A stretch of 64,000 bases of DNA from Diadema setosum. Its lineage: Eukaryota; Echinodermata; Echinoidea; Diadematoida; Diadematidae. The position numbers were made by a program, and so were the translations under genes. Below the pieces are notes generated by a model that worked only from the letters and a program-made list of their open reading frames with translations, was not told the origin of the DNA and did no database searches. The stretch lies in the NCBI RefSeq assembly GCF_964275005.1, contig NC_092704.1, forward strand, positions 11,906,871 to 11,970,870, read 5' to 3'. Below, one piece after another: positions 18,834-48,300 of the stretch (within the stretch, counting starts at the first letter, position 1; every line of letters begins with the position of its first letter).

Positions 18834-21335
18834 AAAACCACATATTATACAAAGACAAAAGTGTTTAACCCGGTGAAGTGGTCCCACCTCACATCCAACT
18901 GGACCCCATGGAAGACCAGCTTAACGTAGCCGAATATGGGCTACTGCGTATCCAGCCATCTTCTCAGATGGAAATGAACAAACAAACAAAATGAGAACAT
19001 GGACGAAAGGCGGAGAAATGATACCGCTTTGACAGGGTCTTTATATTTGCTGTAATGTATGATAGAAGAGCTCTTTATATTCATATAAATAATTGGGTGA
19101 CTACAATTATACTACTCTCTCTGCAAAAAGTACATCGCAGCAAACGTTTTTCTCAAAACATGACTATTAAGTCCTACAATTCAGAGCTGTCACAAGAAAA
19201 ACAACATAACAAAACGATTACAATGATACATTAAAACTGGAATGAAAAAAAATATAGTAAATGGGTCTAACAGTTATACGTACATTCCCATCTGAGGCAT
19301 ACTGTTCTTTTCATTGCTCTCAAAATGAAACAGACAAACAAAAACAAGTAAACAAGACGATGCCCTATGACGTCATATCCCTGCAGACACTTTGGTGAAC
19401 AATATGCTGCTGTCGTTTCCGCCTAGATGGCCCCAAATCTATGATTTACACTGTTCTCTTGTGAAACAATACAAACATAATGTTATTTTCCGGGTACCAA
19501 ACTATTCACGATATCCTGTGATTATGAGCATAATAAGGGTTCGTATATTGTAAGTAATTCTACTGCTATTGGTACCGATAGCAGTCACTATTTTGATTAT
19601 TCCATTGAAACGTTACTTGTTGTTTTATCGTATAAGTTGACGAATACGTGTGCAGAGATACTAATATAATTGTAGTCACCCATTTATTTCTAACGCACTG
19701 AGCTGTAGTATCGATTCATTGTTCATGATTCTTTTTTATATGTTGTATTGTTTCCATATTTCTGCGTCAGAGACACAGCGGGATGTTCTTACCACATCGG
19801 GGGCAACACTGGTCCTCAACGTAGATCAGGTTACCCTGTATGATAAACATACGATCCGTGGTTAATGTTTCTTTGTTTGTTTGTTTTTTTGAAAAAAAGT
19901 GTTATTCTATATTCTTTGTTAACATAATTCTTGCACTGAAATTAAAGTAAAGCACATTGTATGAAAGCACACATTTAAAGTTTATCATCTCGTAGTAGTT
20001 CAAAGCATTATTGTTTTTTATTTGTTTATCAACAGACTAATTGATGCGCTCGAGTTATAAAGACAGTCAAGTTAATGCATAATAATTATACATTATTTTT
20101 TTTCCTTAATTTTTCCAAGACAAAGGCCCTTTAATAGTAAACAAAAAACGTGTTGTAATCGCGTGAAAAATCACTCACGTTACAGGTGGTATTGCAACGG
20201 ACTGGTTGAACCCGGAAACCATCGTCTGCGGAACACGTCATCTCAACGCAACCCCTGCCGTCAGGGCTCGGTATCTGCTCATCAAACTAAGAATAAATAA
20301 TCAGAAACCATTTGCTATTGTTCTTTCCATTTCCTCATGATAATGTTGGTGATGTTGCACGCTGGTACACAGAATATCAGAAGTAAAATTAAAGGGAAAT
20401 TGACCGAGGATCGGATCCACCCACGTTTTTCCTACCTGCCATGCTCCACACTCAGGAATAAAACAGATTCGTACAAGTACACTTGTTCATCGAAATTTTT
20501 GAAATAATGTCAATCGCAGTTTGTCATTGGATTCGGACATTGTCCCTGGCCAATTCCGCCTAATACATACACTTTACGCTGTATAACTTCCCTGTAATGA
20601 AGTGGTCTGCCTTGACTGAAACTTAACTACCTTTACAACATCCATCTTCGTAATAATGATGGCGGCCTCCGTCACACCATCAAACACCGCCATCCAACAG
20701 CGCCTTCCTCAATCTGTGGTCCCTCTACCTTTGACCATTTGTTTTTAATTTTTGTTTAGCATTCCATACAGCTTAATAAACAGATATTCATCCCAAATAA
20801 TTGCTATTTTTACGTCTTGAATAAATCATCATTTAAAAGGAAAGAAAACTGTATGTTGTACAAATTGAAGTCTCTGCAGAAAACATACAATACACAATCA
20901 ATTACAAAACTCAAAATGATCAATCAATACAATAACACACACAAAAAAACCCCCTAAACACTGGATGCACCTGACAGGGCTGCAAGGCATTGGGCAAAAT
21001 TAACTAAATAACTGTAGTCCGCTCACCGCCCTAACCTATATCCATTCCAGGCGCATCCTGTGTTACAGATTTATGTGCCACTGATTATCATAATAAAATA
21101 TTCATACCTATGCCTTTTAAAATGTCTTGCATGAAAATATAAACTATGTAAAAATCCTTGTATATTTCACAAAGACAGAGGAAAAAAAAAACAGTATCTC
21201 ACCAAGTAGAAGTTCCCGTTCACCTTACAACCTGGTCAGGAAGAAGTGAGGGGAAAAATAACATCGGCATTGGCTTTTGCAGAATATGAACATAATAACA
21301 TAACAGAACGTACAACATGAACATAATAATATATC

Positions 21336-21383
<48 letters not shown>

Positions 21384-24300
21384 CATAATTATATGTATAA
21401 AGATATGAACACATAATGGCTATTTTTCATCAAAATGAAAAGAAAAAAACAACAATCCATACAAACCTCATGAAACGCAACAATTAGCTACATGCAAAGA
21501 GAAAACTTCGTTTATCTTAACAAAAAATGTAATCACTTTATACTCAGATACAAATATACGTCACATTATGATACATAAAGAGAAATAATACCATTTGACA
21601 GGCAGCTACAAACAGTCTAAATAATATGAATACAGTTCTAGCTAATATTGGATACAAAACCTTTTGTTGTTGTTTTTTCGGCATATATTCATATACTTTC
21701 TTCGCTTGATTTAAAGATTGACAAAATTGGCGAAAAATCTAATGATTTCTTTTTATTTTTGTCAGAAGTATTTTGCATACAAATAAACCACATTGTAACA
21801 CTTTACGTTAGAACCAAGTTTAAAAGTACTTCTCGTAAGTTGAGTTTGAATCTGTAAGATAATTTCCTGTATTTGAGAAATTCGTTTATCAACCGTTTCA
21901 CCGAAATGTTATTAGAAATTATGTTATTATTGTGTCTTTTCTATTGTTTCTGCCTTCCCCAATGACTCCATCTTTTAACAGCAACATACCCCTTTGCCTT
22001 GGAAGACACTGATCTGTAGTTGAATAAAAGGGAAAAAAGGAAATGATTTGAGCATAAGTAGGAGATATGGGCAGTCTTGATTACAAAATTACACGTATTC
22101 ATGTGAATGGTGGAGCAATCATATAAAGCTTACAAGCTTGTACGTTCACAGACCTGTATAGGTTACAGATTTGTAAGCTCGAAGGCTGATTGGAAATGAC
22201 TCTTTAGACAGCCTCCTTAAAAATGTCCAAATGTATCTAAAAAAAACAAAAAACAAACAAAAACGTTGATGACATGAAGGACAGGAATATACAGGAGAGG
22301 GAATGAAGATAATGTAAAGATCAACTGCCTTAATGAGGACTTATTGGTCATGATAATAATTATATCAACTTGTTAACAACAAATCCTTCTACAAGCGGTT
22401 TTGTGATTACGATATACAGAGTAGAGGGCATAAAGACATAATATCTTATACAGTGACTTGAACAAACCAGTTTTTCCGTAACCAAACAACTAAGACTTTG
22501 GTTGCACCCTTAATCATAGTTATTCAGATTTAAAAATTATTCAGGTGTAGAACATGTATATGAATATGCTCATAAGACCTTGTAAAACAAATGAAGAGTT
22601 TTATCACAAAACGAGCTAACTTCATTCTTGTTAAGTTGAGATGTTATTTTGTGATTAAAGCTGCTAAAAACAAAGAAAATGATAAGACAATATGGGATAT
22701 TTTTATTCATAATTTCTAGAATAATATTCCTTGTTATATTACAAGTGAGGTATCACCGGAAAGGTTTTATTTTGCTCTGTCTGACGATGGACTTACTTTA
22801 AAATGTGTAAAAATGGCGCCTAGCCCATTTTGCAATGAAGCTCTTCAAATGTAGGCCTATGCTCTATCTTTAATATTCAAAACATTAAATTCTATTTAAT
22901 TCATTGCCATTATTATTTTGCTCTAACAAGACAAGTCATATGCTTAGAAAGGTACCTCAGTAGCTGAAAGATAAATCTGACTCGATGAATCTCCACATGA
23001 ATATTTTTATGTCACCTGACTGATTTGCCACAGAACCTTCCAACAATATGTCGTTAATTTTGAGAACCGATGAAGCTCTGAAATCTACACAGTACGTAGT
23101 TCAGTGCACATGAAACATCAACCATGTGTCTTGGGCTGCTGTAGTTGAGATCTCCATTGACAACTGATGAATCTGCCACCGTGCGGAACTTACCGATTGT
23201 AACGCAGTACTCAAACGTTGGCTCGAACGTGAAGTCGCCGAACTGACCGGACCTGGTAAACTGTATCTTGACATCCGTTACATCTGGTGGCAGCAGATTT
23301 GATACATTGAACTCCAGAGTATCTCCCGCCATGGTATCCGGAGGTATCAGAAACTCTGTCACCTTTGAAAAGAAAAAAAAAAGAAAGAAGAAATGATACG
23401 TGGTAATGATCCAAAACAAAATGCACTGACAGATGTGCCTCGAAAGGTACGACGATGTTGATATTTGGGAAATCTGCACAAAAGCTAATTACGAACTGGT
23501 TTACCTAATCCACTATTTTTCTCTACCAAAAAAAAAAAAAATATATATATATATCATGATGTCCATTTAACAACATAGGTCTTTACTCCTTAGTGCATTG
23601 ATTCAGCTCGATACTTACCGTGTCTGTACCGGCATCCGTTACTAGTTGCCAGCTTCCACCCTCACGTTTATAGTGCAACTCGAATCCGACAGGCTCTTGC
23701 GCTTGGAGATCTTGCAAGACCTCGATCCGCAGAGCAGCCAGGACCACCGTGGTGCTGAACTCTGAGGTGAAGGCGCCGGCGGGCTGCGCTACCCCTACAC
23801 CGTCTGTGCTGGAGGCGACATTTCCATCTGGCATCGTGTTAGCGCTGTAAACATCCACTCCGACGATGTCGGTCCCGCAAATAAGCTCTCCAACAAAGTA
23901 ACATATCGGAGCTATATATGGAATAAGTATAGTAACAATGCAACGGTTCATTATTGTTTGCAAGTGTAGTGTACACATGCACGTTAATTACACGTAGTTA
24001 GATTTGTATATAGGCCTACATTTTGAGCAAATGCGAGTGCTTTTCGGTTTCTGTTTTGTTGTTGCTGTGGTGGTGGTTGTTGTTGTTGTATCAACCTTCG
24101 GTATTAACGGTGCGTTACCACTCTCCACCATTACTGTTGGTGTTTTTAAAAAAAATCTTCTCCCCCCCCTCCAAACAGCGCACCTAATCTCAACCTCCTC
24201 GTCAGGTTCATGGGCATGATCTCATATATTTATAAGTCTAATATCTACGTACCTGTCGTGCCGGGAACTGGAGTAGTTGCGGCAGTCGGTGCAGGAGAAG

Positions 24301-27300
24301 CTGTAATTTTGTGCATGACATCAAATTTGTTTACGGTAAGATGAAACATTAGAAGACAAACATAATACAAAAACAAAACAAATAAAAGCACACCTTCACT
24401 TGTCCTGCATGTATTGAAACTGAACAAAAATCACTTGACAGTACAAGAAACATGTTGTTTTATTTTCAATAGGCTGATCGCCCCGTCACTGTACAGGCAT
24501 GCTAACCTGGAAACATTAAACTGCACATTACTTGAATATGAGACCATTCTGAAGCAAATAATTTTCACACAACAATAGATATACAATGTACTCTTAAAGG
24601 AATCCCACAAGGATTGGAACAATCATCCCCAAGCATTCCCACTGATTCCCACTGATCAGTTACTAGCCATCCCCTTTAAGAATGGAATTTACTGCAGTCC
24701 TTTTTATGTGTGAAAACCATTACAACTCGTTTTTTCCTCATAGTACAGAAATAACATGGTTTTGTTTTCATTCAGTTACTTGCCTAACATTTATAAGACA
24801 TTTTCGTCAATTGTGGTTACCCTCAATATCAATAGCATCAAGTGGATATGCAGTTTAACTATTAGTTATGTTAGACAATTATTGTAAACTTTCGTATCAG
24901 AAAGTCCAGTATTAACAAACCTGTGCCTGTAACTGGCGTAGTTGCAGCAGTTTCTGGTGTTGGCCAAGCAGTGACTGTCTACAACAATCATTAATTCTTT
25001 TTATGGAAAGTGTATCATCAAAACAGACGAGATTGCAAAGTGGTTCATTAAAGGAGAGAAAACACACAATATTCGCCATTTTGTAAGCAAATGAATGTTT
25101 GCTGCGTAGACTGGAAATAGTGCAGTCCTTTTTGAAGGTACAAATGTCAGATAACATTCCCGTTTTAAAGATCCAATTTTTTCGCCTGTCTGCATAGCCG
25201 CAAACTGTGCTGTACCGGAGCATTTCGATACCAGTACCACATGTTGTTGAGCGTTCAGACAGACATTTGTACATTCTTGTCTTATATTCAAAAGCTAAAC
25301 ATCAGTTTTGTCCGTGTACAAGCAATGATTAAACGAAGTTTCATTACTTCCCTTTTCCTGAAATAGAGATTTCCCTCATTTCTACAACATAATCATGATT
25401 TGCTCAAGTTGTCCTTGTTTGGACTGGAATATTTACGTACCTGTGGTGCTGGGAGCTGGACTAGTTGCAGGTGTCGGTGCTGGCGAAGCTGTGCCTGTGT
25501 ACAAAACAACAATCATTGCATTATGAGAGAATTCGTTGAGAGCAAAATTGCTAGTTTGTCAGCAATTTCTGTGGAACGGTAAATATGTTTGCTTGCATTC
25601 CTTTTTCCAGGTATAAAATAACGAAAACATCAAAACCATTTTTTTTTTCATATTAATGGTACAGGAATCACAATGATTTAGTCCTTTCAATGACGCCTAT
25701 TTCCAATATTATAAAATTAAGTTAGTTTTGGTAACCCACTATATCAGAAAGTACAAATTTCCCCAAAACAAACAAACAAAAACGTGGGTCTTGAAACTAC
25801 AATAGTTCGTGCTGTTGTTGTTGGTGGTGGACAGTGCCTGTATAAAAAAAGAAAAGAGAGTCATATTGTAGAAAGATTCGTCATTGATGTTAATTCAAAT
25901 ATCAATTTCGTCAATGTGCAAATAACATTTGTAAAAAAGGTCGTTTATTCATCTTGTCATGCAAAATAATCTTTACCTCTTTTTCAGTGTTTTAATCAAT
26001 ATTTGGTATGTCGTCATATTTAGAAGTACAGCATTTACGAACCTGTGGTGCTGGGAGCTGGAGTAGTTGCAGCAGTTGTTGGTGCTGGCGAAGCTGTGCC
26101 TGTATATAGCAATCATTTTATAGAAAGATGCGTCAACGATGTTAATCTAAATATCAATTTTGTCAATGTGCCAATAACACTTGTAAGAAGTTCGTTTATT
26201 CATCTTGCCATGCAAAGTAATCTTTATCTCTATTTCATGTCCTAATCAGGACAACAACCATTGCATACAAACAAAGGTTTAACTGATTGAAAGAAATACC
26301 ATCTTCTCACTAAATACTTTGGTATTAAAGGACAAGTTCACCTTCATAAACGTAAGGATTGAGAGAATGCAGCAATATTAGTAGAACACATCAGTGACAG
26401 TTTGAAGAAAATTAGACAATCGACGCAAAAGTTATGAATTTTTTAAATTTTTGTATTGGAACTGCTGGTTGAGGAGACTACTACAGCTTGTGATGTCATA
26501 TGCGTACAACAGTATAAAGAAATTATAAAGAAAATTCAACATATTTTCACGTTTTTTTTTGCATAATAAAAGAGCACTTGACTTGCCTCTTTCTAAAGAC
26601 AGGGGGAATAATATTACCCATAACATATGTCAGTAACAAGTCAAGGGAATGTGAACTTTTTTCAAAAGATGAAATTTTGTGAAATTCTCTTTATATTTTC
26701 CTTATATTGTTGTACTCATGTGACATCATACGCTGCAGTAGTCTTCTCATCCAGCGGTGACTGCACAAAAACTTCAAAAATTCATAATTTTTGAACGGAT
26801 TGTCTGACTTCCCTCAAACTTTCAATGATGTGTTGTACTAATATTGCTACATTCTCTAAATCCTTATGTTTATGAAGGTGAACTTGTCCTTTAAGAATGG
26901 AATTAACTGCAGTCCGTTTTATGTGTAAAAACCATTACAACTCGTTTTTTCCCCATGGTACAGAAATAACATGGTTTTGTTCTCAATCAGTATACTCGCC
27001 TATATAATGATATTCATAAGCCATTTTCGTCAATTGTGGTTACCCTCAATATCAATAACATCACGTGGATATGTTTTTTTCACTATTAGTTATGTTAGAC
27101 AATTATTTTAATCTTTCGTATCAGAAAGTCAAATATCAACGAACCTGTGCCTGTAACTTACGTAGTTGCAGCTGTTTCTGATGTTAGCCAAGCAGTGGCT
27201 GTGTACAACAATCATTGATTCTTTTTATGGAAAGTGTATCATCAAAACAGATGAGATTGTAAGGTGGTTCATTAAAGGAGAGAAAACACACAATATTCGC

Positions 27301-30300
27301 CATTTTGTAAGCAAATGAACGCGCAGACTGAAAATAGTACAGTCCTTTTTGAATGTACAAATGTCAGATAACATTCCCGTTTTAAAGATTACATTTCTTC
27401 GCCTGTCTGCATAGCCGCAAACTGTGCTATACCGGAGTATTTCGATACCATTACCACATGTTGTTGAGCGTTCAGACAGACCTTTTGTGCATTCGTGTCT
27501 TATATTCAAAAGCTAAACATCATTTTAGTCCGTGTACATTGTACAAGCAATGATTAAAAAAAGTTTCATTATTTACCTTTTCCTGAAATAGAGATTTTCC
27601 TCATTTCTGCATTCTAGTCATGATTTGCTTAAGTTGTCCTTGTTTGGACTGCAACATTTATATACCTTTGGTGCTAGGAGCTGGACTAGTTGCAGGAGTC
27701 GTTGGCGCTGGCGAAGCTGTGCCTGTGCACATAACAACGGTCATTGCATTATGAGAAAATTCGTTGATTGCAAAATTGCTAGTTTGTCAGCAATTTCTGT
27801 GGAACGGTATTGTTTGCTTGCATTCTTTTTCCCAGGTGTAAAATAACAAAAACATCAAAACTACTTTACTTTTTCATATTAATGGTACAGGAATCACAAT
27901 GATTTAGTCCTTTTAAGAACGCCTATTTCCAATATTAGAAAATTAAGTTAGTTTTGGTAACCCACTATGACTATATCAGAAAGTACAAATTCCCCCCAAA
28001 CAAACACACAAACAAAAACGCAGGTCCTGAAACTACAATAGTTAATGTGGACAGTGCCTGGACATAAAGAAAAGAAAATCATACTGTGGAAAGATTGTCA
28101 TTGATGTTAATTTAAACATCAATTTTGTCAATGTGCAAATAAAATTTGTAAAAAGAACATTGTTTATTCATCTTTTCATGCAAAGTAATCTTTATCTCTA
28201 TTTCAATGTCATAATCAGGTTTGGTTTGTCGTCATATTTAGAAGTGCAATATTTACTTACCTGTGGTGCTTGGGCCTGGAGTTGCAGAAGTTGTTGGTGG
28301 CGGGAAAGCTGTGTACAACAATTTTATTTCATTTAAAAAAAGATGCATCATCGACATAAATATCCATGTCAAATTTGTCATTATACAAGTTATATTAAAC
28401 GAAGTTTCTTTATTTCTCTTGTCTTGCACAACAATCTTTTCTTCATTTCTACATAAATAATGTAAACGGGATTGGGTAAGATGTCAAGTGCAATATTCAT
28501 ATACCTTTGGTGCTGGGAGCTGGAGTAGTTGCAGGAGTTGTCGGTGCTGGCGAAGCTGTGCCTGTATACATAAGTGATTACGGCGTAAAAAAAAAAGAAA
28601 GAAAGAAAAATAAACCATAAATCGTTGATAGCAAAATATGCCACTGGCAGCAATTGCTATAAAATAGTCCATGCATTTCCAGTGCAGTCCTTTAATTCTC
28701 CAGGTCGTTGTAAGAAATTCCCAAATGATATTTCCTTATAAATGGTTCAGGAGTCATATGGACTTGTTCTTTTCGAATGATTAGTAGGTACATCCTACTT
28801 GAAACATTTAGTATTTTAGTAAGTTGTGGAAACTTTTCATATCAAAAGGTTCACTGTCAACGTTCCTGTTGGAATAGTCCCAGCAGTTGTTGGTGCTGGT
28901 GAACCAGTGCCTGTGTACAACAATCATTTTATAGAAAAATGCGTCATCAATGTTAATCTGAATATCAGTTATGTCATGTGAAAGTAACACTTGGACGAAG
29001 TTTGTTAATTTTCTCTTGTCATGCAAATTAATCTTTATCTCTATTTCAATATCTTAATCACGATTTGGTTTGTCGTCATATCTAGAAGTGCAATATTTAC
29101 GTACCTGTTGTGCTTGGGCCTGGAGTTGCAGAAGTTGTTAATGGCGGGAAAGCAGTTGCTGTGTACAACAATTTTATTTCATTAAAAAAAAAGATGCATC
29201 ATCGATGTAGATATCCATGTCAAATTTGTCATTATACAAGTTATATCAAACGAAGTTTCTTTTTTTCTCTTGTCTTGCACAACATTCTTTTCTTCATTTC
29301 TACATAAATAATGTAAACGGGATTGGATAAGATGTCAAGTGCAATATTTATATACCTTTGGTGCTGGGAGCTGGAGTAGCTGCAGGAGTTGTCGGTGCTG
29401 GCGAAGCTGTACCTGGAAACATAAGTGATTACGGCGTAAAAAAGAAAAATAAACCATAAATCGTTGATAGCAAAATATGCCGCTTGCAGCAATTGCTGTA
29501 AAATTGTCCATGCATTTCCAGTGCAGTCCTTTAATTTTCCAGGTCGTTGTAAGAAATACCGAAATAATATTTCCTTATAAATGGTTCAGGAGTCACATGG
29601 ATTTGTTCTTTTTGAATTATTAGTAGGTACATCCTACTTGAAATATTTAGTTTTTTTAGTAAGTTGTGGAAACATTTCATATCACAAGGTTCACCATCAA
29701 CGTCAACGTACCTGTTGGAGTAGTCCCAGCAGTTGTTGGTGCTGGCGAACCAGTGCCTGTGTATAACAATCATTTGATAGAAAGATGCGTCAATGATGTT
29801 AATCGAAATATCAATTATGTCATTTTGAAAGGAACACTCGTCCGAAGTTCGTTTATTCCTCTTGGTATGCAAATTAATCTTTATCTCTACAGTGTGTATT
29901 TCAATGTCCTAATCAATATTTGGTATGTCGTCATATTTAGAAGTGCAATACTTTCGTACCTCTGGTACTGGGAGCTGGAGTAGTTGCAGGAGTTGTTGGT
30001 GCTTTCGAAGCTGTGCCTGTGTACGTAACAACAACCAATGCGAAGAACGAGGAATCCTTGATATCGAACCAAATAATCGCTAGATTGCCAGAACTAAAAG
30101 GTCATGACAAGATGTACAGAAACATGATCCATTCAAAATTCAGGTGGTTGATGCACTTGTTGGCGCAGGTGAAAATGAACATGAAACACTTTTCGGCAAG
30201 AGGTCTTGATAGGAACATAATAATATATTTCTTTTCTTGTCATCAAACATGATTACATAACTGATGATCTTGTCATCACATTTCATTACGTAGTTGATGA

Positions 30301-33300
30301 CCTTGGTGAACATGACTTTCTTGAACATTTTATACATTTACGTTTACATTTAAGGTCAATTTCTACATAATTGTTATACCTATCGTGCTTGGAACTGGCG
30401 TAGTCGCGGCTGTCGTCGGTGGTTTGGGAGCTGTAATTGTGTAAACATGAGATATGATCAATTCAACGTCTAAACAATAAGGATCATTTTTTTTTCTCTC
30501 TCTAGGAAGTATTGTACACATATTGAATGTCTCTTACTACACCATTCCCCGTAGATTTTACCGTATGCTTGATTTAGATGATTCAATTCTTTATTAAGTT
30601 ATATACTCCAATATGAACGTAATTATTATTTCATTCGATTCATTTTTCTTTTGTTTTATCTTTAATATAAGTTTCAAATTCAACCACTTAATATTATGGT
30701 ACGTTTTCAGGTGTAGAAATTGCGATATATACGTACCAGTTGTGCTGGGCGCTGGAGTAGTTGCAGCAGTTGTTGGCGCCGGAGACCCTGCGTGTTTAAG
30801 TCACAAGAATCATACGATATTCGTCAGCAAAATGGTTGGGCATTGAATTGAGTTAGGTAGCAAGTATTTCCCACAAGGAGAGATAGATTGTTTGTTATCA
30901 GCAGATGTCGTGAATTATTTGTATCATTTTGGTTGTGTAGTCAGTGATAGTAAAAATTCGTAAATATTCATGCCTGACCTATAATGTTATTGTCCGCCAA
31001 AAAGATAGAAAACTAATGAGAAAAATGCTTAATATTTTGTTTCAACAAGTAATGCACCTGTCTTTGCCCGCGTTAGAAACTGCTTATTTTTAAAATTTTG
31101 AGAAATGTGATGTTTCATGGGAAACTCATGAATGTGTATGAGTCTCTCCCTTGCACAGTGCGAACTTTGCACATTGTGTTATTACATTACTTCAGAATCT
31201 TTTGGTTGTTCGCTGCAACCCAATTAGCGCGTCTACCCGTATCAATGCATATCGGAGCAACAAACAAACAATAAAAGAAAATAGTTCATTATTTCTTTTT
31301 TTCATATGGGGCCTACTTTACTCCGGTTAGGCATCGTCATATTTGATCATTTAATCATTATATTTTGATGCCTCTTAACCCTATAAAGCCCAAGCTATTT
31401 TGACCCCTTCCAGGCCCAAGGAGGGGGGGGGGGGGGGGCACATTGTGCCCCCTATATAACTTTTTTTTTTTTAATATATGATATATCAACGTCATATTTG
31501 GCACATGAATAGAGCAACTCATACTGTACATGACCCAACATTTGAAATTTCTCAAGGTCACCAATTGAGGGCGCTATTTACCAAAATATAAAGAAAAACA
31601 TAGGAAATATGTTAAAATCATATTTTTTTCTTTATATTCCTTTATCCCCAGTATATATGCTTTTATTTTGTATCAATCAATTTGATATTTGCGAGAAAGG
31701 AAGAGCAAGTAAACCTTCACTATTTGTCATGGTTGAAATTTCTCAAGGTCAGCATATGGGGCGCTATTCATTACAATATATAGAAATATATTAAACCTCT
31801 GATGTATTGCTTGGGATAGGTACATATATTGGTATCACATTTAATATTTCCATAATATTGGAAATTTGATATTACAGGCACAGCTTGTGTGAAAATAAGA
31901 CAAAATAAATGGGTAGTCTTTGGAAAATGCTGTATTTTAATTATTTCTATTACGTCATATAAAAATAAAGGAAATGATAAGAAAACCATTTCAGGGTAAT
32001 TCACAGCCATAATTACTTCACATTTTGGTTCTTCAGCAAATTACAGCCAAGAAAACCCACATTTCACCCATTATTATATTGTTGATTGAAATTGGAACAG
32101 AAAAACATGCAAAATCTGATGAGCATGGTTGTCAGTTTACGGTTGCCATGGCAACCAGCAATACCAAACATAGCTAAATTATATACCAAAACGTTTGCAA
32201 TAAGATTTTAGGAAAAGTCACCAAATTTGGTTGAAATCGGGTAAAGGGCATGAAGGGTGTAGGAGTGGCAAACGAAAATACGGTAGGGGGCACAATGTGC
32301 CCCCTCCCCTTGGGCTTTATAGGGTTAAAGTTAAATGGAAGCTATTTCCCTTGCACTTTCTGCTTTACGAACCGAATTTAGTAGGAATGCGGCTTGACAG
32401 TGATGTTGAGGAAGTATGTTAATCACATTGAGAAGAATGCATTAGACAGAAAAGGCAACAAAATCAAGAGGAAAGGGCAAAACTTGGTCATATCTGCACT
32501 CACCTACTCGGAGGCAACCTCTCACGTAAATGTTAGCTCTGGTGGCATTCAGAACATCAAAGTTAATCACCACCGATACGATTGGCAATGTATTGTACGG
32601 TTCATCGATCACAAATGAGCTGGGGGAGCTTGCTGGAACGATGATAGAGTCGGGAGCTTTGCTACCATCCATAGCTGTGATATCGGTGAGCTCAATTTGT
32701 CGAAGACGGGCCGGCTGTTTGTTGGTGAACACCGTAATAGCGTAAATTTCGGCTGCGATCGGACGGGAGGTGTCATTAGAGGTGAAAGACATCCGGATCC
32801 TGTTCAGAGATCCTTGTAAAACAGGGACAGTCTCAGCCTGCGTTGGTGAGCCGCCATTTGGCGTCAGGGTAACGATGGGTTCAACGGCTTCACTCTCAGC
32901 GAGGGGTTTGTCACACTCATCTTTACCATGGCAACAGGAAGAAGACAGAATGAGATAGAGGGAGAAAGTGATAAATGTGATCAGGAATAGCGACAAAGAG
33001 GGAGAATGAAAAAAAAATAATAAAAAAGACAAGATAACAAACATCGGAATCCTAAAGTTAATTTAAAAAAAAAAATGTTTGAGCTTTTGAAATAAATCTA
33101 AAGCAAACAAACTGTTGTTGTTTTTTTTTTGTAATCAATGGTTCATGGAAATGCCCCTCGAGAGTAGCTGTCCGTAAACCTCTAATTCATAATGATTGCC
33201 TCGTGAAAATTGTGATCAAATCTGCTCCGTGCGCACACATTGGTATTTACATTGGCTGAACCACTCAAGTGTATCATTGTGCATTGTAAAGTCAACATTA

Positions 33301-36300
33301 AGTCTATATTATGCGAGCAAACAATACTTACAATATACCGGAGTAGTCGTTGGAACGGTCACTGAATAAAAGCAGAGACAAACAAATAAGATAGTAAGTA
33401 ATCAATGATTGTTTTGCCATGTCGTTATCTTTGAAAACAAAAAGTGTGGAGAAACACAGGAAGTACTGAATAGATAACAAGTTTAAAACTGTGCATGTGC
33501 TCACTTCTGGATCCGTTACATGCAAAAGGGATGAAGGGTCATCAGGAAATAAAATAACTACATCTTAAGTCATTGCTGCGTTTAAATAAATCTCACTACA
33601 ATCCTTCTGAATGTCTAAGGAGCAAGAACTAGAAAAGTCTAATATTTACGTACCTACGGTACTTTGAACTGGAGTCGTTGCTACAGTTCTTGGTGCTGGC
33701 GAAGCTGTGCCTGTGTAAACAACAATAATCACGGCGTAAAGAGAGAAATCGTTGATAGCAAAGTATGTAGTTTGTCAGCAATTGCTGTAGAATAGTAAAT
33801 ACAAAATGTTTCCTGTTGTTCTTCTCCAGGTATAAGAAGCGTTAAAACATGGATTTCCTATTAACAGTACAGGAATCACATGGAATTGTTGTTGTTGTTT
33901 TTTCAACAATGACAAGCAGGCTTTGCCTCTTTGCAATACTATGTAATTTACTTAGTTGTCGTACCCCTCTATCATGTCTATTTAGAGAAAGTCCAACGAT
34001 AACGTACCTGTGGTGCTTGGAGCTGGAGTAGTTGCAGCAGTTGTTGGTGATGGCGAAGCTGTGCCTGTGTACAACAATCGTAATATAGAGAGCTTTATCA
34101 TCAATGCTAACTTAAATCAGAATCAATCGCACGGCAAGATTTACCACTGCAAATAACCATTTCTCAAAATATAATGTCCTTGCTAATATATATATATAAT
34201 ATATATATATGTAACTGGAGTAGCAGTTGTTGGTCCTGGTGAACCAGTGCCTGTGTACAACAATCCTTTTCTAGAATATTGCACCATTGATTAAAAAAAA
34301 AAAAAACCCGCCAGTTTCTTAGAGTGCAATCACATGGCACTGCAAGGTGAATCGATCATTAAGAAAAGAAACCCAATTATTGAATTGTCATTTTGTGAAC
34401 AGATGTTATGGACCGCGCAGAATATAATACAGTCCTTTTAAATGTACACATGACATATAACAGATCCTTTTTCGGCACTTGTTTTAATGGACACTAAAAT
34501 CGTTGGGGGGGGGGGGGGGTTTGGGGGTGATGGATACAGTTACATCAGACCTTTGCTCAATTCTTTCAATTCGTACAAAAGTTATAACTATCTATCTTAT
34601 CACTCCGCAAGTTACAATTATACGGAGTTTTTATACTTTTTTTCGATTTCTACATTCTATTCAAAATTTGGCCACTTGTCATATTTAGAAATACAATATA
34701 TATGTACCTGCGGTGCTGGGAGCAGGAGAAGTTGCAGGAGTTGTTGGTGCCGGCGAAGCTGTGCCTGTGAACAACAATCATTTTATAAAAGATGCATCGA
34801 CGATGTAAATCTTAATATCAATTTTGTCATTGTACAAGTAACATTGAACGAAGCAATCACTTATTGAATAATTATGAATAATTATGTTAATGAAAACATA
34901 TTTTGTGTGCACGACGGAGTTGGGCTGGTCATAATCAGCTGCTTTCGTTGGTCCCTGGCAAATCACTTTTGCTTGGGTGCAGCCATTTGTCTGCATTATT
35001 GTGTACCCTTGCACGCATGATAGAAATAAAGATATAAATAGTCTTTGGCATGATATCCATCGGATAATAATATAGCATTCATAATGAGTATATGTTTTGT
35101 GCATTGATGGTAGAAAACATTATGATTATAGCATATCCATTCATCGTATCTTGCTAGTCAGCAGTTTCTTGAATATTTGAAAAAAAAAAATGTTTGTTTC
35201 AATTGTCTGTACGAAAGAAATGGCTTAATATTGTGTTGAAGTAATAATTATGTATTTCATCCATTCTCTGTATAATTATGTTGCCGTGAGAAATGTTCAG
35301 TAAATTTTATCATTTGCAAAAAAAAAAAAAAAATAAATAAAAATGAACGAATCTACTTTATTTCTCTTGTCTTGCACAATAATCTATTCTTAATTTTTAC
35401 ATTATAATTTGGCTTTGGCGAGATTTCAAACGCAATATTTACGAACCTGTGGTGGTAGGAGCTGGAGAAGTTGCAGGAGTTGTTGGTGCTGGCGAAGCTG
35501 TGCCTGTTTACATAACAATTACGAAATATAGAGAGACATCGTTGATAGCAAAATATCTAATTTTTGTTAGTACAGTATACAAATGATGCACAGGACAGAG
35601 TGAATCGGTGAGAATTGGATGCGCGAGTTTAACTTTGGAACTGTTTAAATTTACGAGCACAGCAAGTCGGTTTCATGAAATACAACCATTTCCCCCATAA
35701 TACGTCCGGAACACCAACAGCACTGTACAAGACTTGAGCCATGCGTCCGGATTTTACCGGACGCATGGCCATAAGTTCAGGTTTTACCGGACCCATTGGC
35801 CATGCGTTCGGATTTTACTGGGCGCATGGCTCAGTGTGGATCAGTAAAAATCAATGCATGACAATTGACCAATCAGATTGCAGAGATTCTAAAGCCCATT
35901 TTTATAATTATTGCTGTAGACATGTAAGTGGGTCAGTCCATGGGGTTGGGTCATCTTATGTGACTTACTAGGTTTCAAAAACCAAGCCTCAGTAAAACCA
36001 AGTAAATGTCTGCCAGTTATGACTTCAGAAAGGAAACGGTATCCCAAGCATCATGAGTATTATGATTTTAGACTGGATAATTTGTTATTAATGCAATAAA
36101 TAAATGTGATATCTATGCAATTAACGGAATTAAGCAAATTAACTTGTAGCGCAGTAAATCCACGAAAGATTTCTGATTTAAAAATGCATCACAATAATTT
36201 ATGTAGCAAGGGGCAAAATCAAAATTCATAATTTACCCAGCAAAACTTAACCACCTTTGAAATGATCTTCATTGTGAAGTGAAAAAAGTTCATGACTCTG

Positions 36301-39300
36301 TCATATCGACCTTATGCAATTTGTTAATCCAACCCGATGGACTGACCGAAATGCATTTTACTGCAGTCCTCAGGCTTCTCCAGGTATAAGAAATACTGAA
36401 ACAAGACTTTCCTATTGATGATACATGAATCACATTGATTTGCCCTCTTAACTTGCTGTAAATACTTCGATTGAATCGTTTAAGATCACTACAAAAGTGG
36501 TTAACATTTCAATGACTAGTTGGCGCAGCCTGTTTTCAATATTAGGTATTAACTTCAATAACTGTGATGTAATCCTTTAAAAAAAAAACTTTATATTTGA
36601 ATAATTCTTAATATCTTGACATCATAATAATGCAATATTTTTATAATCCTTTATATAAAAAAAGACTATAAACGAACCTGTGGTGCCCGTAACTGGAGAG
36701 GTTGCAGCAGTTGTTGGTGCAGGCGAGGCAGTGCCTGCGAACAACAATCATTTTGCAGAAGTTCTTTCATCAATGCTTGCTTAAATGTCAATTATAATCA
36801 ATTGCACGGTGAGATTTACCACTGCAAATAATCTCAAAACAATAATCATTTCTCAAAATGTAATGCAATTGTTTTAACCAAAAAAAAAAAAGAATCTCAA
36901 GATCTGCGCAAAGCAAGCGAAGAAAATGGATGAAAATAATATGTCGCAAAATGAACGATCCTGAATGTTTATGATGGGAATAAAATTTCTCTGTGAAAAA
37001 AAAAAAAAAAAATAAGTCTCTGCGCTTAGAAAGTCCAATATTTACGCACCTGTGGTTTTTGGATAGGGAGTGGTTGCTGCAGTTGTTGGTGGTTTAATAA
37101 TGAACGACATTATTTCAATATGTGGTAAGAGCTATGAGTAGACATAAAGCAGCAAAATTAGATTATCGTCTTCAGCAACTGGGAATACTTTGTAAAATAG
37201 GCGATCTTTTTTGACAAAATATTAGAAGATGATTTTGTGTGTGTATGGTTGTGTATGTGCGTCTTCTTTCGAAATTGCCTGGGTCATACTTGATATCTAC
37301 AAAATTTAAAATGCATGAGCCGCAGGTTTTCTTGTCAATATATTGATGACGTTTGCTGTTGAAGACCCAAAGGCAATAATATCAACTTTTTTTTTAACAT
37401 CAAACATTGAAATCTGAACAAATTTTAATCGAGACAGCCACTGCAATTGGAACTTTCCATACAATACGCGGCCTCTCGCCACTATTAAATTCTCCGTGTC
37501 TCTGTCACCTTTCCCCCGTTTCTTCTTCTAAAAAGTTAATATAAGTTCTACGCACGTACTGTCTAGGGCACCGCAAACTCTTTGGAGCTGTCGATAACGT
37601 GCATTAGAGCTGGGAAATAGTAAATGCCGTATTATCTCATCCAAGTGGTCGTGTACCAGTAGAGAACGAATGATAACCAGCAGAAAAAAGGGAAAGGAAA
37701 TAGTTCATGAATATTATCATGCCTACCTATTTTAATACAGCCTTTGACGTAAATAGAAGCATTGGTGGCGTCCAGTACGTCGAAGATAATCACGACTGAA
37801 GTCATTGGTATCTTATTGTACCGCTCTTCAAGGACAAACGAAGTTGGCTCGTTCGCTGGAACAATGATAGAATCTGGCAACTCCCTGCCATCCAGAGCTG
37901 TGATATTTGTGAGCTTAATCTGGGTGAGAGCGGCCGGTTGACGGTCAGTGACGATCGTGATAGCGTAGATTTCTGCTGCGATCGGACGTGAGGTGTTCCC
38001 AGAGGTGAAAGTCATCTGGATTCTGTTCTGAGATCCTGGTAAGACGGGGACAGCCTCACCCGTCGTTGGTGAGCCGAAATTTGGCGTCAGCGTAATGATG
38101 GGCTCAATGGCTTCACCCTCAGCGAGGGGCTTGTCACACTCATCTTCACCATGGCAACAGTACGAGGGCAGATTGAGACAGAGGGAGAAAGTGATAACGA
38201 GATAAAATTTTTAATGTGATCATTGATAATGAGAAAGTGGAAGAATAGGAATACTCCCCTACACAATGAGATAACAAACAACGGAGTCCTAAAGTTGAAA
38301 AGGGGCTTTTGATAATAACATGATACGGAAATGAAAACCATGCAGGGTATCTATTTATTTTTTTTTCTCAACAGTGCTACTTTAAAATGCCTGTTGAGAT
38401 TGTGTAATCCATTTCAGGATGGCTGTCTCCTGAAATTTGTGATCGACTCTGCTGTATGTACCCGCATTGGTATTCAAGACAGATTGGCCAAACCACTTAG
38501 ATGTATATCATCATGATCATTGTGCATTGTTAAGTCAATAAACAAATTATTACGCCTATCCGAGAAAACAATACTTACAATATATCGGAGTCGTTGTTGG
38601 AGTGGTAACTGGATGAAAATAAAGGAAAATGGGATATTTAGTAATGAAAGATTCTTTGATTTATGCCTTTGTTTTTGAAAATAAACACTAAGGAGTAAAC
38701 TACGCTGCAAGTGATGTATGAAATAATGACAACTGAGTTGTGCGTGCGTTTATTACTGGATTCGTTGCACACAAGAGGGGTGAAGGGTCATCAGAAAATA
38801 AAGTAACTACATTTCTTGTCAGCGAAGATTGCTGCCTTAAAATGAATCTTTGTACAATCCTTCCAAATGACTCAGAAGCAAGAATTCATTAAGAGAGTTC
38901 AATATTATGTACCTTTTATGATCTTTGGCACTGTAGTCGTTGCTGCAGTTGTTGGTGCTGGCAAAGCTGTTCCTGTGTGCACAGCAACATTGATGGCGTA
39001 AAGAGAGAAAACGTTGATAGCAAAATATCTAGTTTGTCAACAATTGCTCAAGAATAGTAAATGCATCATGGCTGCGGCGGTCCTTATCCAAGTATGTGAA
39101 ATATTAAAACAAAGCTTTGCCTAAGCTTTGCTTTCCTATTGATGTTACAGGAATCCCATGGATTACAGCAATGACTAGTAGGCGTTGTCTGTTGGCAATA
39201 TTAGGTACTTTCCTTAGTTGTGGTCCCCCTTTATTTCTTTTTTTTTTTAAAGTCTAATTTCACCGTACCTGTGGTGCTAGGAGCTGGAGTACTTGCAGCA

Positions 39301-42300
39301 GCTGTTGGTGATGGCGAAGCGGTGCCTGTTGACAACAATCAATAAAGAAAGATGGATCATCGATGATATCGTAACGGAATCAATTGCACGATCAGATTGA
39401 CCGCTGCAAACAATAATTTCTCAAAATATAAGGCACTTGCGTGAAAATAAAAATTACTATTTTATTGTTCATTTCGTCATTTCGCAAGGCAAGCAAAGAA
39501 AATAGATGGACATGCTAATGTTAGAAAAACAATGAACCTTAATGTTCATATGAGAATAAAATTTCTTTGTGAAAAAAATGTCACTGCGCTTAGAATGTCC
39601 AATATTTAGGCACCTGTGGTTCTTGGAAAGAGAGTGGTTGCTACAGTTGTTGGGGCTGGCGAACCTGTGTTTTATAACGAAGGACATTATTAGGTGATCC
39701 GAGTATCCTCTCGGATCACCTTCTGTATCTGTACGGATTCTTTGTTCTTCTACTTTCTTTCTGGACAAAAGTTGTGCATCTACTTACTCAGAAAGTTCTC
39801 AGAGTATCAATTTCAAACTTATAGCATATATGTATCATGTCCCAAAGACGACAAATCTAATGTATCATTGTGATCAGTCGACCGTGACGTCACTATGACG
39901 TCATTATATGAAAACACATTTTCATTCATATCTCATTAATGGAATAGAATTTTTCAATGAAATTTACGTCACATATATTTCAAGTCAAGCGCATTCTACT
40001 CATATTATCAAAATTCACATTTTCTCTTAAAACGTGAGAGTACGTGCGCGTTGAAATTTTTGTATGCTCAAATCGAGCTCAAAATTTTTTTGCACACGTT
40101 TCAGACCATTTGGAGCATTTTTTGAAAAATTGAACAAATTGGACGGACGCGTACGCGCGCGCACATATACGCACGCACAGCTCATATGCAATAGAAATTT
40201 CCCGTTTTTTCACATTAATCGGATGCCTGAAATGTCAAGGAATATTTCTACCAAGTGTCAAGTCAATCTGACTCAAAATGACGTCATACGGGCCCGTCAA
40301 AGTTGAAATTCCGCGCGCGCGTCAATGGCGATATACAGTGCAACAATGCAAAAAAAACCCGCCAATTTTGAATCCGATTTTACTCGTCAGGATGGACGGT
40401 GACCCCCCATTTTCTTTACATATTCTGAAAGCTGATGAGTTGTACATGTCATTTCATGGGTTGGCGATGCTGAAAAAATGATTAAAAGATATCAAATTTC
40501 TTAATAAATTAAAAAAAAAGTAAATTTTCAAAAATGACGTCATCAAAATTCAAGTTCACTCGAGCGTATCTCACTTATCCTTTGCCGATTTTGACACAAA
40601 TTTTAGTATGTTGTAGCTTATTAAATGCTCTTTCATCAATATAATAACAACATTTTGATTGGATGACGGCATCACCTCGTAAAAATGGATTGAAGGTAAT
40701 CTTGTCAAATTTGACCAGTTTACGTGTTATCTCTATGGGAGTGCAGTTTTTTTGGAAGTGAAAATTGACATGACTATCTTTCTCGAGCACTAGCTCACTT
40801 ATGCTTCGGTGAATTTCTCCCAAATTTTAGTATGTTGTAGCTGAGACTTTGGGCTATCGTGAATGTGCCCTTCATTTTTTCATACGACGTCGGCATCACG
40901 TCAAAAAATTTGGTTGAAATTAAAGCTTATCTTCGATGTATTGAGATATTTCTTTCTTTCTGCAACTTTCTTTGCAATAGCTCAAGAAATACAGCCCCTA
41001 TCACCCCCATATTTTGCACATGTTTAGTTCATGTCACGTACATTATTTCATAAAATAAAAACTACTTGATCGGACACCATCTTGGGTATGTAAATTAGGG
41101 TCAAAGGTCATAAATATTTCATCCTGTATCTTAGTAAATACATGTTCTATCTTTCCCATATTTTGCACACGTAATGACCATGTTACAAGAATCATTTCAC
41201 AAAATAACCACTTTTTGCTCAGATGCCATCTTGTCTGTGCAAAGTGGGGTCAAAGGTCATATGTACTTTTTTCTGTACCTTCGTTATGACGTGTTATCTC
41301 TATGGGAGGGAATTTTTCTAGATATGAAAGTTGACATGATTGTCTTTATCGAGCACTAGCTCACTTACCCTTCGGTGAATTTCTCCCAGATTTTAGTATG
41401 TTGTAGCTGAGACTTTGCGCTATCGTTAATGTGCATTTTGTTTTTTCATACGATGTCGGGATCATGCTAAAAAACGTGGTTGAAATTAAAGCTTATCTTC
41501 GATGTATTGAGATATTTCTTTGTTTTTCCAACTTTCTTTGCAATAACTCAAGAAAAACAGCCTCTATCATCCCCATATTTTGCACATGTTTAGTTCATGT
41601 CACGTACATTATTTCATAATGTAACAACTACTTGATCGGACACCATCTTGGGTATGTAAATTAGGGTCAAAGGTCATAAATGTTTCATCCTGTATCTTGG
41701 TGAATACTTGTCCTATCTTTCCCATATTTTGCACACGCAAAGACCATGTTACAAGAATCATTTCACGAAATAACCACTTTTTGCTGAGATTCCATCTTTG
41801 GTGTGCAAAATTGGGTCAAAGGTCAAATATACTTCATTCTGTATCTTCGTTAGTGCATACGGAATTCGGTACCAAAGATGGCAGGTCTGACTCCCTTTTC
41901 TATGAGACTCCAAACATCACATGGACAATGTCCCCTCAACACAGATGAAACCTGTATGGTCATGCCTATTGGGATCAGGACTCAAATCATTGATTTCCCA
42001 ATAGATAGGATCACCTAATTTGTCAGTGTTGACAAATTCCGAGTCTAGTTATGTTTAATTCCGTGACAAGAGCTATCACGAGAAATAAAACAGCGAAATT
42101 ACATTATCATCTTAGTATTTTAGGGTACTTTACAAAATAGATGATTTTGTTTTCATAGTGCAATAAGATGATTTTCTATTTTTCGGTGTCTATTATTCTT
42201 TTAACATTGCCTGGGCTATACTTAATATTTACAAAAATGATAATACGTAAGCTGCACGTGGTCATAAGTTGGGTGAAGGTTTTCTTGTTAATATTTTGAT

Positions 42301-45300: not shown

Positions 45301-48300
45301 TGGTGAATACTTGTCCTATATTTCCCATATTTTGCACACGCAAAGACCATGTTACAAGAATCATTTCACAAAATAACCACTTTTTGCTCAGATGCCATCT
45401 TTGGTGTGCAAAATGGGGTCAAAGGTCAAATATACTACATTATGTATCTTCGTTGGTGCATACGGAATTCGGTACCAAATATGGCAGGTCTGACTCCCTT
45501 TTCTAAATGAGACTCCAAACATCACATGGCCAATGTCCCCTCAACACAGATGAAACCTGTATGGTCATGCCTATTGGGATCATGACTCAAATCATTGATT
45601 TCCCAATCGATCGGATCACCTAATTTGTCAGTGTTGACAAATTCCGAGTCTAGTCTTTGTCTTTTTTTTTTTTTTTTTTTTTTTTTTTACATCATGTGCT
45701 ATTGATTTTTTGTTGTTCGAAGGGTGGCGGTTTTCAGCGACGCAGGTCAACCAATTTGACGTTTTTGTCTTCTTTTTCCCTATACTCTCCCTTTATTTTC
45801 TGATACCCCAATTGTATAGGTTTATAAATGTCTCAATCGCACTGATAGGAACACTTCTGTCAACATTGCTATCACAGCATGTGGTTTATTTGTTCTCCTA
45901 TATACAATGATATATTTTAGAAGACTTTGCTATCCCCCCAGTACTGATGTATTTTTTGTCCTTAGTTCGGTCCTAATTAGTTGCATTCGTGCTTCTTAAC
46001 TATCTTGTTCTTTCCACCTTTACACACGGTTTTTTATTGGAACCGATGCTTAGGTTCCATTGAATTTATCTCGCATTTTTACATAGATGAAAACTTTCAT
46101 AGAACATTGCGCCTCCAAGCTGGATACCATACATCATTCTATTTTGTTATACCTGTGCGGGTTTGTTTGTTGTTGTTTTTTAATTGAGAAGTGTGAAAAT
46201 AAACTGAACTGAAACGAAGCTTTATTTACCATCAATGTCGGCATTCCTTACAAAGAATTTGTTTTTGTCGATCAATTAATGTGGCATTGTACAACAATAA
46301 TGGTTGTCTTTAACATCATTGTATAGGCTTATCCCCTGTAACAAGGTTTTTGATCCCTTTATCCAACACTTCCTAATCGTGATATTGTCTACTACGCAGA
46401 TAACATTAACAACACACCTGAGCGATCCAGCCCGACCTGCGATCACTATGCAATCTACCTGCGAGTTTGCCCGACCAGTGCCGGAGGTCGCAGCAATATT
46501 TGAACATGTCCAAAACCTTGCAACCGCCAGCGACCGTCAGCAACCACCAGCGACCTAAACACAACTACAAAACTAATGAAAATTTATACGTTCCGCCAAG
46601 AATTGTACATTATAGTCACGCAAAGTCCATGGAACAAATAATGACACTTTCTAGCGCAATCCCTGGAGTTCATCGTTGCAGAATTAACTAGAAATGTCGC
46701 TATGGCGACTGGTATGCCTCCGTCATAATGCATGATTTTCTTAATAGGTCTAAGTACAATGTCTTGACAATATGTGATGACAGTTTCACATAATTGGCAA
46801 AATATTAAAATGACAGGTTTGTCATAAATGTGTTGAATGTTCACTCTCATTTAGCTAGGTTTGATTGGATGAATGGCTATACTGTCTAAGAGTGCAGGTA
46901 TTTGGGGATTTGAGGATTTTTTTTTTACCTGACTTATAAGTGTAAGAAAGAAGTGAAATTTAGCACCTTCACTTGATCTTTGACCTTTTGGCAAGAAACT
47001 TCCAAGAGAATCTCTGTTGGGTAATTCATGCATACTTTAAAGTTTCAAGAAAAATCCTGCAGGAATTGCAAAGATAAGAGGGAAATAGTAACATTTTGAT
47101 GAGTTGACCTTGACCGTTGACCCCTGACCTTTGACCCATGACCCCTAAAATTCCCTAGATGATCACTGCCAGTTAGTACATGCATATAAGTTCCATGAAG
47201 ATACCTTGAAATATTTGTGATATGGAAAAAAGCGAAATTTAAACATTTCTACTTGACCTTTGACCTTTGACCTCATGACCCAAAACTCTCTCTGGTGAAT
47301 CTTTATTAGGTAGTTTATGTATACACCACGTTTCAAGGAAATACCTTCAAGCATTGCATAGATATGAGGGAAAAAGTGAGATTTTTAGCATTTGACCTTG
47401 ACCTTTTGACGTTTGACCTTGAGCATGTGAACCCAAACGTTGATGCACAATTTCGCCCACTCACACATGCCAAGTTTCGTTAGGATATCTTAAACTACTT
47501 TTTAGTTACGCTGTCCGCAAAAATTGATTACAGACGGAAGGACGGACGGACGGACGTACGGACAACCCGAAAACATAATGCCTCCGGCGACACTTCGTGG
47601 CGGAGGCATGAAAATACATGTACCAGATTTGAAGGATGCAAGTTGTGCGCCAGTCTGGCTTTAAGACCCTCCGCTCGTATAATTTTGCAATGGTCTCCGC
47701 GGAGGGCGCATTTTGTAAAAGGAGGGCAGTTGGCAAAGCGTTTGGAAACTAGACTAGTTGTGCGCAAATACGTGACCAAAATCTGTGCGTGCGCCCCATA
47801 GAGTTCTGTGGCGTGCGCCGCTAGTGTCGCAGCACGGTCGACAGCGTGACCTTTGAAAATGCAGCTCCGATCGCGTTCCCGATTGCATGGCCGTGCGAAA
47901 GACTGATTTTCCGCTCGCACAAAAATCTTCGTTTTCGGTATAAAGTAGTAAATTGTGTATGTATGTCAATATCGATAACAAAAACATGAAGTCTAATTAA
48001 TGAAGATTGTCCTTAATGAGCATGGTCTGAGGTGATAAAAATGATGTCAAGAATCAAAACTCAACGCGATCGACATGTTCGCTTTGTTTTTTGAACCTCA
48101 CTGGTACAGCCCTGTCGCGTTTTTACAGCGACTGGGCTGTGTATAGTTACCCTCTGGTAGTGAAGTGCCAACACTGAAGAGGCTATCATGAATAAAGAAG
48201 ACCTTTTTATTTTTACTCTGTTGTAACCTGAACATCACGTGAAAGAAGACACAACAAAATGAATTAGTCTACCTGTTGTGCCTGGAGCTGCTGATGTTGT

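Follow-up and report, generated by a model that had tools for sequence, protein, structure and literature searches.

Here we describe a minus-strand gene in a 64,000-nt stretch of the genome of the echinoid Diadema setosum (contig NC_092704.1, positions 11,906,871 to 11,970,870; hereafter the window, numbered from its first letter), which looks like a mucin-type gene and resembles those of gel-forming mucins. The region from 39664 to 24253 probably belongs to the O-glycosylation part, rich in proline, threonine and serine (PTS), of a secreted gel-forming-type mucin gene. In this part, a conventional 945-bp PTS exon precedes a microexon array into which a domain that we call X is inserted at two places, and the array would have grown and shrunk by unequal crossing-over with the exon as the seam.

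Results

The microexon array

Reading donors, acceptors and frame directly on the minus strand, we counted 21 intact phase 1-1 microexons of 45–60 bp, every one of which codes for a single TASPAPTTAATTPAPSTT-like unit, and positions 39664 and 24253 are the exact outer ends of the first and the last of them (Table 1, with all lengths). The array additionally holds two 30-bp linker exons, one truncated exon of 27 bp, six decayed copies, one of which is doubtful, and two domain X exons of 417 bp. The joining codon mostly encodes glycine, and the protein repeat therefore reads G-TASPAPTTAATTPAPSTT. With the linkers included, the array encodes 33% threonine, 10% serine and 22.5% proline; serine and threonine together make up 43% both here and in the 945-bp PTS exon, where proline accounts for 17.5%. 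A preliminary description of this DNA, made from its letters, had reported at least 21 exons of this size with one PTS unit each, the same outer limits, the two linkers, a uniform phase 1-1 that keeps any ordered subset in frame, and a mucin-type gene around them, and our reading agrees with it in all of these respects; the six decayed copies are an addition to that description.

Such an arrangement is not expected by chance. A scan of positions 24000–39800 for stop-free phase 1-1 AG...GT segments rich in Thr/Pro/Ser/Ala/Gly returned 22 minus-strand loci and a single plus-strand one, while 200 dinucleotide-preserving shuffles gave a mean of 0.07 and a maximum of 1. A DNA profile built from 21 exons and their flanks, which matches its own seeds by construction, found 26 minus-strand sites with E<1e-4 in the stretch, the best plus-strand site of the whole window having E=1.4. 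All 27 internal exons (the 21 microexons, the truncated copy, both linkers, both X exons and the 945-bp PTS exon) are multiples of three in length. Since all units are phase 1-1, any ordered subset keeps the frame, and none of the 378 forward joins creates a stop codon; joined in full, the chain that begins with the 945-bp PTS exon and ends with the first of the exons of the following domain, Y, comprises 3302 nt without a stop. At least 7 of 9 consensus positions are matched by 20 of 24 donors, and two of the remaining four were scored one base off.

Block duplication

Self-alignment of the region revealed three main block pairs: a 1.6-kb pair (28449–26888 and 26236–24673, 84%), a 1.1-kb pair (29997–28922 and 29139–28077, 86%) and a 1.7-kb pair which contains domain X (39440–37738 and 34183–32515, 71%). 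In a tree of all 28 copies with their flanks, four classes could be distinguished, namely a (E14/E17/E20/E24, support 0.95, with E14 and E24 paired at only 0.34), b (E15/E18d/E21d/E25d, 0.85), d (E23d/E27, 0.99) and c, whose two groups, E22/E26 (0.999) and E16/E19 with E06 (0.91), are united at only 0.23. The succession of these classes along the array is abc abc abc d abc d, where three-exon units are spaced at about 855 bp and the unit containing d at 2.2 kb. From the duplicated blocks and the class order it follows that recent growth duplicated three to four exons at once. The preliminary description had regarded exon plus intron as the amplifying unit, which is too simple for these recent events, as they copied blocks of three to four exons and a block containing X; flank-type changes suggest that older events may have amplified single units.

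The exon as a proposed recombination seam

We compared the 110 bp on either side of each exon separately. The best partner was the same on both flanks for 15 of the 28 copies, and some of the others have strong but differing partners. E24 resembles E15 upstream (84%, z 19) but not downstream (z 1.2), and E14 downstream (86%, z 16) but not upstream (z 1.4). E14 likewise matches E17 and E20 downstream with z 16–18, and upstream with only z 2.8, while the upstream flanks of E03 and E10 match that of E26, and that of E05 matches E09 (z 13–15), with hardly any downstream similarity (z 0.6–2.9). The simplest reading of these changes of flank type is crossing-over in or at the common exon, and they suggest the repeat exon as the crossover seam.

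Retention of usable exons

To judge whether copies have been kept usable, eight independent sister pairs of copies were compared with intron-calibrated neutral expectation; the pair E21d/E25d was left out because its decay is shared by both copies, as were unpaired copies. Both copies are intact in 5 of the 8 pairs, where 1.8 would be expected (P=0.013), and where 2.4 would be expected once at least one intact copy is required (P=0.054). Under the same condition, frameshifted copies number at most 1, against 3.8 expected (P=0.040). Preference should be given to these conditioned values, because pairs lacking any intact copy went uncounted. Selection on exon usability is thus modestly supported.

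Domain X

The two domain X exons align without gaps at 69% amino acid identity, and their nonsynonymous and synonymous divergence (dN 0.21, dS 0.65, Fisher P 7e-7) shows that they are protein-coding and under purifying selection. As this constrained domain is embedded in the array, at least part of the array region is probably both transcribed and translated. No Pfam family matched domain X above its cut-off, Cupredoxin_1 (E=0.08) being below it and rejected, and among 24 candidate relatives from the protein collection none reached E<=10. The AlphaFold model, built from the two sequences, has low confidence (mean pLDDT 59), and the best 50 of 1506 Foldseek rows at E<=10 were low-TM beta structures of unrelated kinds (TMq <=0.47). 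The model suggests a beta-rich domain, to which we assign no family name. In vertebrate mucins, CysD domains interrupt the PTS region (PMC3549977, PMC6269512), as X does here; the analogy is one of position only.

Gene context

The VWD, C8 and TIL domains all exceed their Pfam cut-offs and are located upstream of the PTS exon, likewise on the minus strand, and the sequences in the PDB that match the C-terminal VWD piece are FCGBP, VWF, MUC5B, MUC2 and MUC5AC. Downstream of the array follow the two exons of domain Y, the second of them predicted, three predicted VWC-like exons and a cystine-knot-like last exon with the stop codon. Phases are consistent along all named exons, and the domain order is the one expected of a VWD-type mucin. 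Between domain Y and the VWC-like exons there may be additional exons, and the N-terminus of the gene appears to lie beyond the window. Among 19 peptides run against Pfam, without an exhaustive search, no SEA, EGF or transmembrane segment was found. For the last exon, the sequence matches in the PDB are led by the cystine-knot proteins sclerostin and NBL1 (E 0.026–0.76), a search of the protein collection for relatives gave no candidate, and a Pfam hit to Nepo_coat_C (E=0.013) is below cut-off and implausible.

Further observations on the PTS exon and its surroundings were made. Its 3' end (48299–48263) matches the microexon profile with E=0.0016, a hint that the array may have originated from the end of this exon. 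The 3' splice site of the exon is copied at the start of each of its three 234-bp repeats (GATATCTTTAG before 49217, 48983 and 48749), and in-frame alternative acceptors 78 codons apart are consequently possible. The intron before E01 carries two copies, 93% identical, of a 2.4-kb element (45654–43280 and 42049–39687), each with a palindrome-like GATCCGAGAGGATACTCGGATC stretch at one end; the 2.4-kb sequence is probably a mobile element. Rfam at its gathering thresholds reported only two tRNAs, tRNA-Thr(GGT) at 52862–52936 on the plus strand and tRNA-Gly(TCC) at 61285–61357 on the minus strand; these may be tRNA genes or copies of such genes, and they are situated close to or inside introns of the mucin gene.

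As for the decayed copies, class b has decayed in three of its four block copies and is intact only in the first, unlike classes a and c, which are intact in all four. The doubtful E13d may not be a true copy.

Table 1. Exons, domains and decayed copies along the gene, in window positions
Feature	Positions	Strand	Evidence or remark
VWD domain, N-terminal part (exon piece)	60865..61041	-	Pfam PF00094 E=2.1e-6, above cut-off
VWD domain, C-terminal part (exon piece)	55984..56115	-	Pfam PF00094 E=4.8e-13
C8 domain	51970..52125	-	Pfam PF08742 E=1.1e-14
TIL domain	51266..51418	-	Pfam PF01826 E=1.2e-6
Conventional PTS exon, 945 bp	48273..49217	-	phase 1-1, three 234-bp repeats
Microexon E01, 51 bp	39614..39664	-	
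Microexon E02, 57 bp	39269..39325	-	
Microexon E03, 60 bp	38913..38972	-	
Linker exon L1, 30 bp	38579..38608	-	
Domain X1 exon, 417 bp	37727..38143	-	
E04t, truncated copy, 27 bp	37050..37076	-	substitute acceptor
Microexon E05, 57 bp	36678..36734	-	
Microexon E06, 57 bp	35447..35503	-	
Microexon E07, 57 bp	34708..34764	-	
E08d, decayed copy	34216..34250	-	only GT out-of-frame; profile E=1.2e-10
Microexon E09, 57 bp	34008..34064	-	
Microexon E10, 57 bp	33654..33710	-	
Linker exon L2, 30 bp	33332..33361	-	
Domain X2 exon, 417 bp	32504..32920	-	
Microexon E11, 51 bp	30737..30787	-	
Microexon E12, 51 bp	30380..30430	-	
E13d, decayed copy, doubtful	30144..30173	-	no acceptor; profile E=0.14 only
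Microexon E14, 57 bp	29960..30016	-	class a
Microexon E15, 45 bp	29712..29756	-	class b
Microexon E16, 57 bp	29356..29412	-	class c
Microexon E17, 54 bp	29105..29158	-	class a
E18d, decayed copy	28866..28910	-	class b; donor GT replaced by GA; profile, tree
Microexon E19, 57 bp	28505..28561	-	class c
Microexon E20, 48 bp	28261..28308	-	class a
E21d, short remnant	28029..28057	-	class b; missed by profile, placed by reading, block and tree
Microexon E22, 57 bp	27666..27722	-	class c
E23d, decayed copy	27145..27198	-	class d; in-frame stop; profile, tree
Microexon E24, 57 bp	26043..26099	-	class a downstream, b-type upstream flank
E25d, decayed copy	25790..25837	-	class b; in-frame stop, 3' limit approximate; profile, tree
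Microexon E26, 54 bp	25441..25494	-	class c
Microexon E27, 54 bp	24921..24974	-	class d
Microexon E28, 48 bp	24253..24300	-	last of array
Domain Y, first exon	23619..23911	-	phase 1 in, phase 0 out; no Pfam match
Domain Y, second exon (inferred)	23194..23362	-	splice signs and frame
VWC-like exon 1 (inferred)	21203..21231	-	frame and splice signs
VWC-like exon 2 (inferred)	20179..20277	-	frame and splice signs
VWC-like exon 3 (inferred)	19793..19835	-	frame and splice signs
Cystine-knot-like last exon, with stop codon	18389..18696	-	Pfam and PDB sequence matches

Discussion

We propose a model in which the repeat exon, as the stretch common to all copies, acts as the homology seam, while the introns would keep the units apart. 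Unequal crossing-over would lengthen as well as shorten the array, and because the phase is 1 at both borders of every unit, and each has splice sites of its own, the products of crossovers and transcripts with skipped exons would remain in frame. Selection would then preserve the usability of the unit, i.e. its splice sites and frame, over its exact sequence, as expected of a glycan scaffold. Variation in length, via exon skipping or among individuals, is possible under this model but unproven. The further-reaching proposal, that one exon serves as coding unit, splicing unit and seam, with crossovers making in-frame hybrid exons and blocks and with some 21 microexons and the two X domains, included in varying combinations, giving many isoforms per individual, goes beyond this, and we consider it unlikely as a whole.

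Several observations weigh against the model. In four of five overlapping block comparisons, exons are about as conserved as introns (exon/intron identity 0.882/0.890, 0.885/0.902, 0.797/0.791 with X included, and 0.741/0.789), whereas in the fifth exon identity clearly exceeds that of the introns (0.919 vs 0.801). The tests for constraint covered the full-length 57-bp exons, 11 of the 21 intact ones, with shorter and longer exons left out, and among these there is no synonymous excess by NG86 (18 synonymous and 34 nonsynonymous changes, P 0.40; dN/dS 0.64), replacements within the class T/S/P/A/G are not enriched (17 of 28, P 0.34) and the codon-position test is not significant (P 0.13). Sequence constraint on individual microexons was hence not detected, six of the 28 copies are decayed and one is truncated, and the neutrality tests are based on eight pairs and approximate rates. 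With respect to the seam, E17 and E20 also carry the b-type upstream flank of E24, although less closely (z 8.2), so that the switch may be a single older event not private to E24, and deletions in nearby intron sequence could mimic a change of flank. At the 3' end of the gene, the peptide joined from the VWC-like exons (Pfam VWC, E=0.023) and the cystine-knot-like exon (Sclerostin E=0.031, Cys_knot E=0.22) stay below the Pfam cut-offs. It should be noted that the modestly supported retention of usability agrees with the view expressed for mucins that a sufficient number of glycan sites interrupted by prolines may be more important than the precise PTS sequence (PMC6269512).

The same equality of exon and intron identity in four of five comparisons, together with the lack of a significant synonymous excess and the decayed and truncated copies, would be expected if the array were largely a non-functional relic decaying in large introns, with only the 945-bp PTS exon and the domains in use. 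We nevertheless consider this quite improbable, since AG, GT and open frame are retained in 21 copies, both copies of a sister pair are intact more often than expected (with the P values given above), and the X exons inside the array are under purifying selection. Length differences point in the same direction: the copies of 7 of the 8 sister pairs differ by a multiple of three, which follows in part from how an intact copy is defined, compared to only 18 of the 74 gaps in introns of the three main blocks, where the exon gaps are 6,3,3 / 3,3,3,6 / 1,1,3,1,1. Copy number inflated by an assembly artefact or by collapsed haplotypes is more improbable still, to the point that we give it hardly any weight: tandem repeats are indeed error-prone in assemblies, but the divergence within the three main pairs of blocks amounts to about 14–29%, with private indels and decay states, which is beyond what haplotypes or read errors would be expected to produce.

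A regulated isoform generator, in which the microexons are alternatively spliced in combination to give many mucin lengths per individual, is the alternative to which we concede the most, although we still think it rather doubtful. It is compatible with the symmetric phase and the stop-free joins, combinatorial splicing has been proposed by the authors who described chicken Muc13 (PMC1552070), and transcripts of the Schistosoma mansoni mucins SmPoMuc are described as having 1–100 repeats (PMC2576457). The symmetry is, however, expected anyway from the duplication of one phase 1-1 unit, and the predominantly strong donors also fit constitutive inclusion. Taken together, a PTS region extended by crossing-over at the exon, with modestly supported selection on usability, remains the reading we favour.

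Parts of this architecture have precedents. Chicken Muc13 has a PTS domain of at least 12 repeats of 20 amino acids with one exon each, and its authors considered that the multi-exon layout may be ancestral and proposed length control by splicing, mentioning an unpublished zebrafish homologue that is also multi-exon (Lang, Hansson and Samuelsson 2006, PMC1552070). While it shares one exon per PTS repeat with the array described here, chicken Muc13 is a transmembrane SEA mucin, whereas the present gene has VWD, C8 and TIL neighbours, an additional long PTS exon and two X domains, and its repeats are more diverged than those of Muc13, nearly identical by description. In SmPoMuc, the mucin repeat is encoded by a 27-bp exon that has been amplified in tandem together with its introns, in up to 20 units of about 1 kb, and repeat number differs between genes and between transcripts (2008, PMC2576457); there, unit introns are described as more than 94% identical with one exon per unit, in contrast to aligned pieces of about 65–92% identity and recent units of three to four exons here. 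Consequently, one repeat per exon and the amplification of exon-intron units were both already known. In the gel-forming chicken MUC2, the PTS repeats extend from exon 32 to exon 44 or 45 and are accompanied by repeated genomic elements in their flanks (PMC3549977), albeit with 69-aa repeats and mixed exon sizes (e.g. 29, 44, 198, 423 and 869 bp), unlike the microexons here. Human MUC2 and MUC6 are gel-forming, as the gene here appears to be, and have a repetitive, length-variable PTS region, and the repeats of human MUC2 reside in a single 8,793-bp exon 30 (PMC6269512). The preliminary description had taken this last layout as that of vertebrate mucins, to which chicken Muc13 and chicken MUC2 are published exceptions, and the present gene carries a conventional PTS exon beside its microexons.

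Arrays of short repeat-encoding exons are known from titin PEVK, elastin and schistosome micro-exon genes. Spider silk genes have also been cited for exon-intron repeat units (PMC2576457), yet all of these are either not mucins or do not encode PTS repeats. The text of a paper on sea anemone mucins (PMC9080433) does not contain the word exon. Among the papers listed in searches of the open-access literature, which most subscription journals lie outside of, none describes, by title and opening of the abstract, a VWD-type mucin of an invertebrate in which each repeat has its own exon, and no report of the combination seen here was met within the same limits, which does not show absence in print. 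What sets the present gene apart is this combination, namely a VWD-type mucin with a conventional PTS exon and a microexon array, growth in blocks of several exons, a PTS region interrupted by X domains and, at the exon, changes of flank type.

The number of repeats in a mucin affects its properties as a barrier, and it is a general question how an array of repeats can expand and yet keep the frame. With a 234-bp repeat inside an exon and an array of microexons separated by introns in one and the same gene, mutation, decay and splicing of both forms can be compared side by side. The gene described here suggests that the multi-exon PTS layout, which was proposed to be ancestral for Muc13 (PMC1552070), occurs in a VWD-type mucin beyond the cases met in print.

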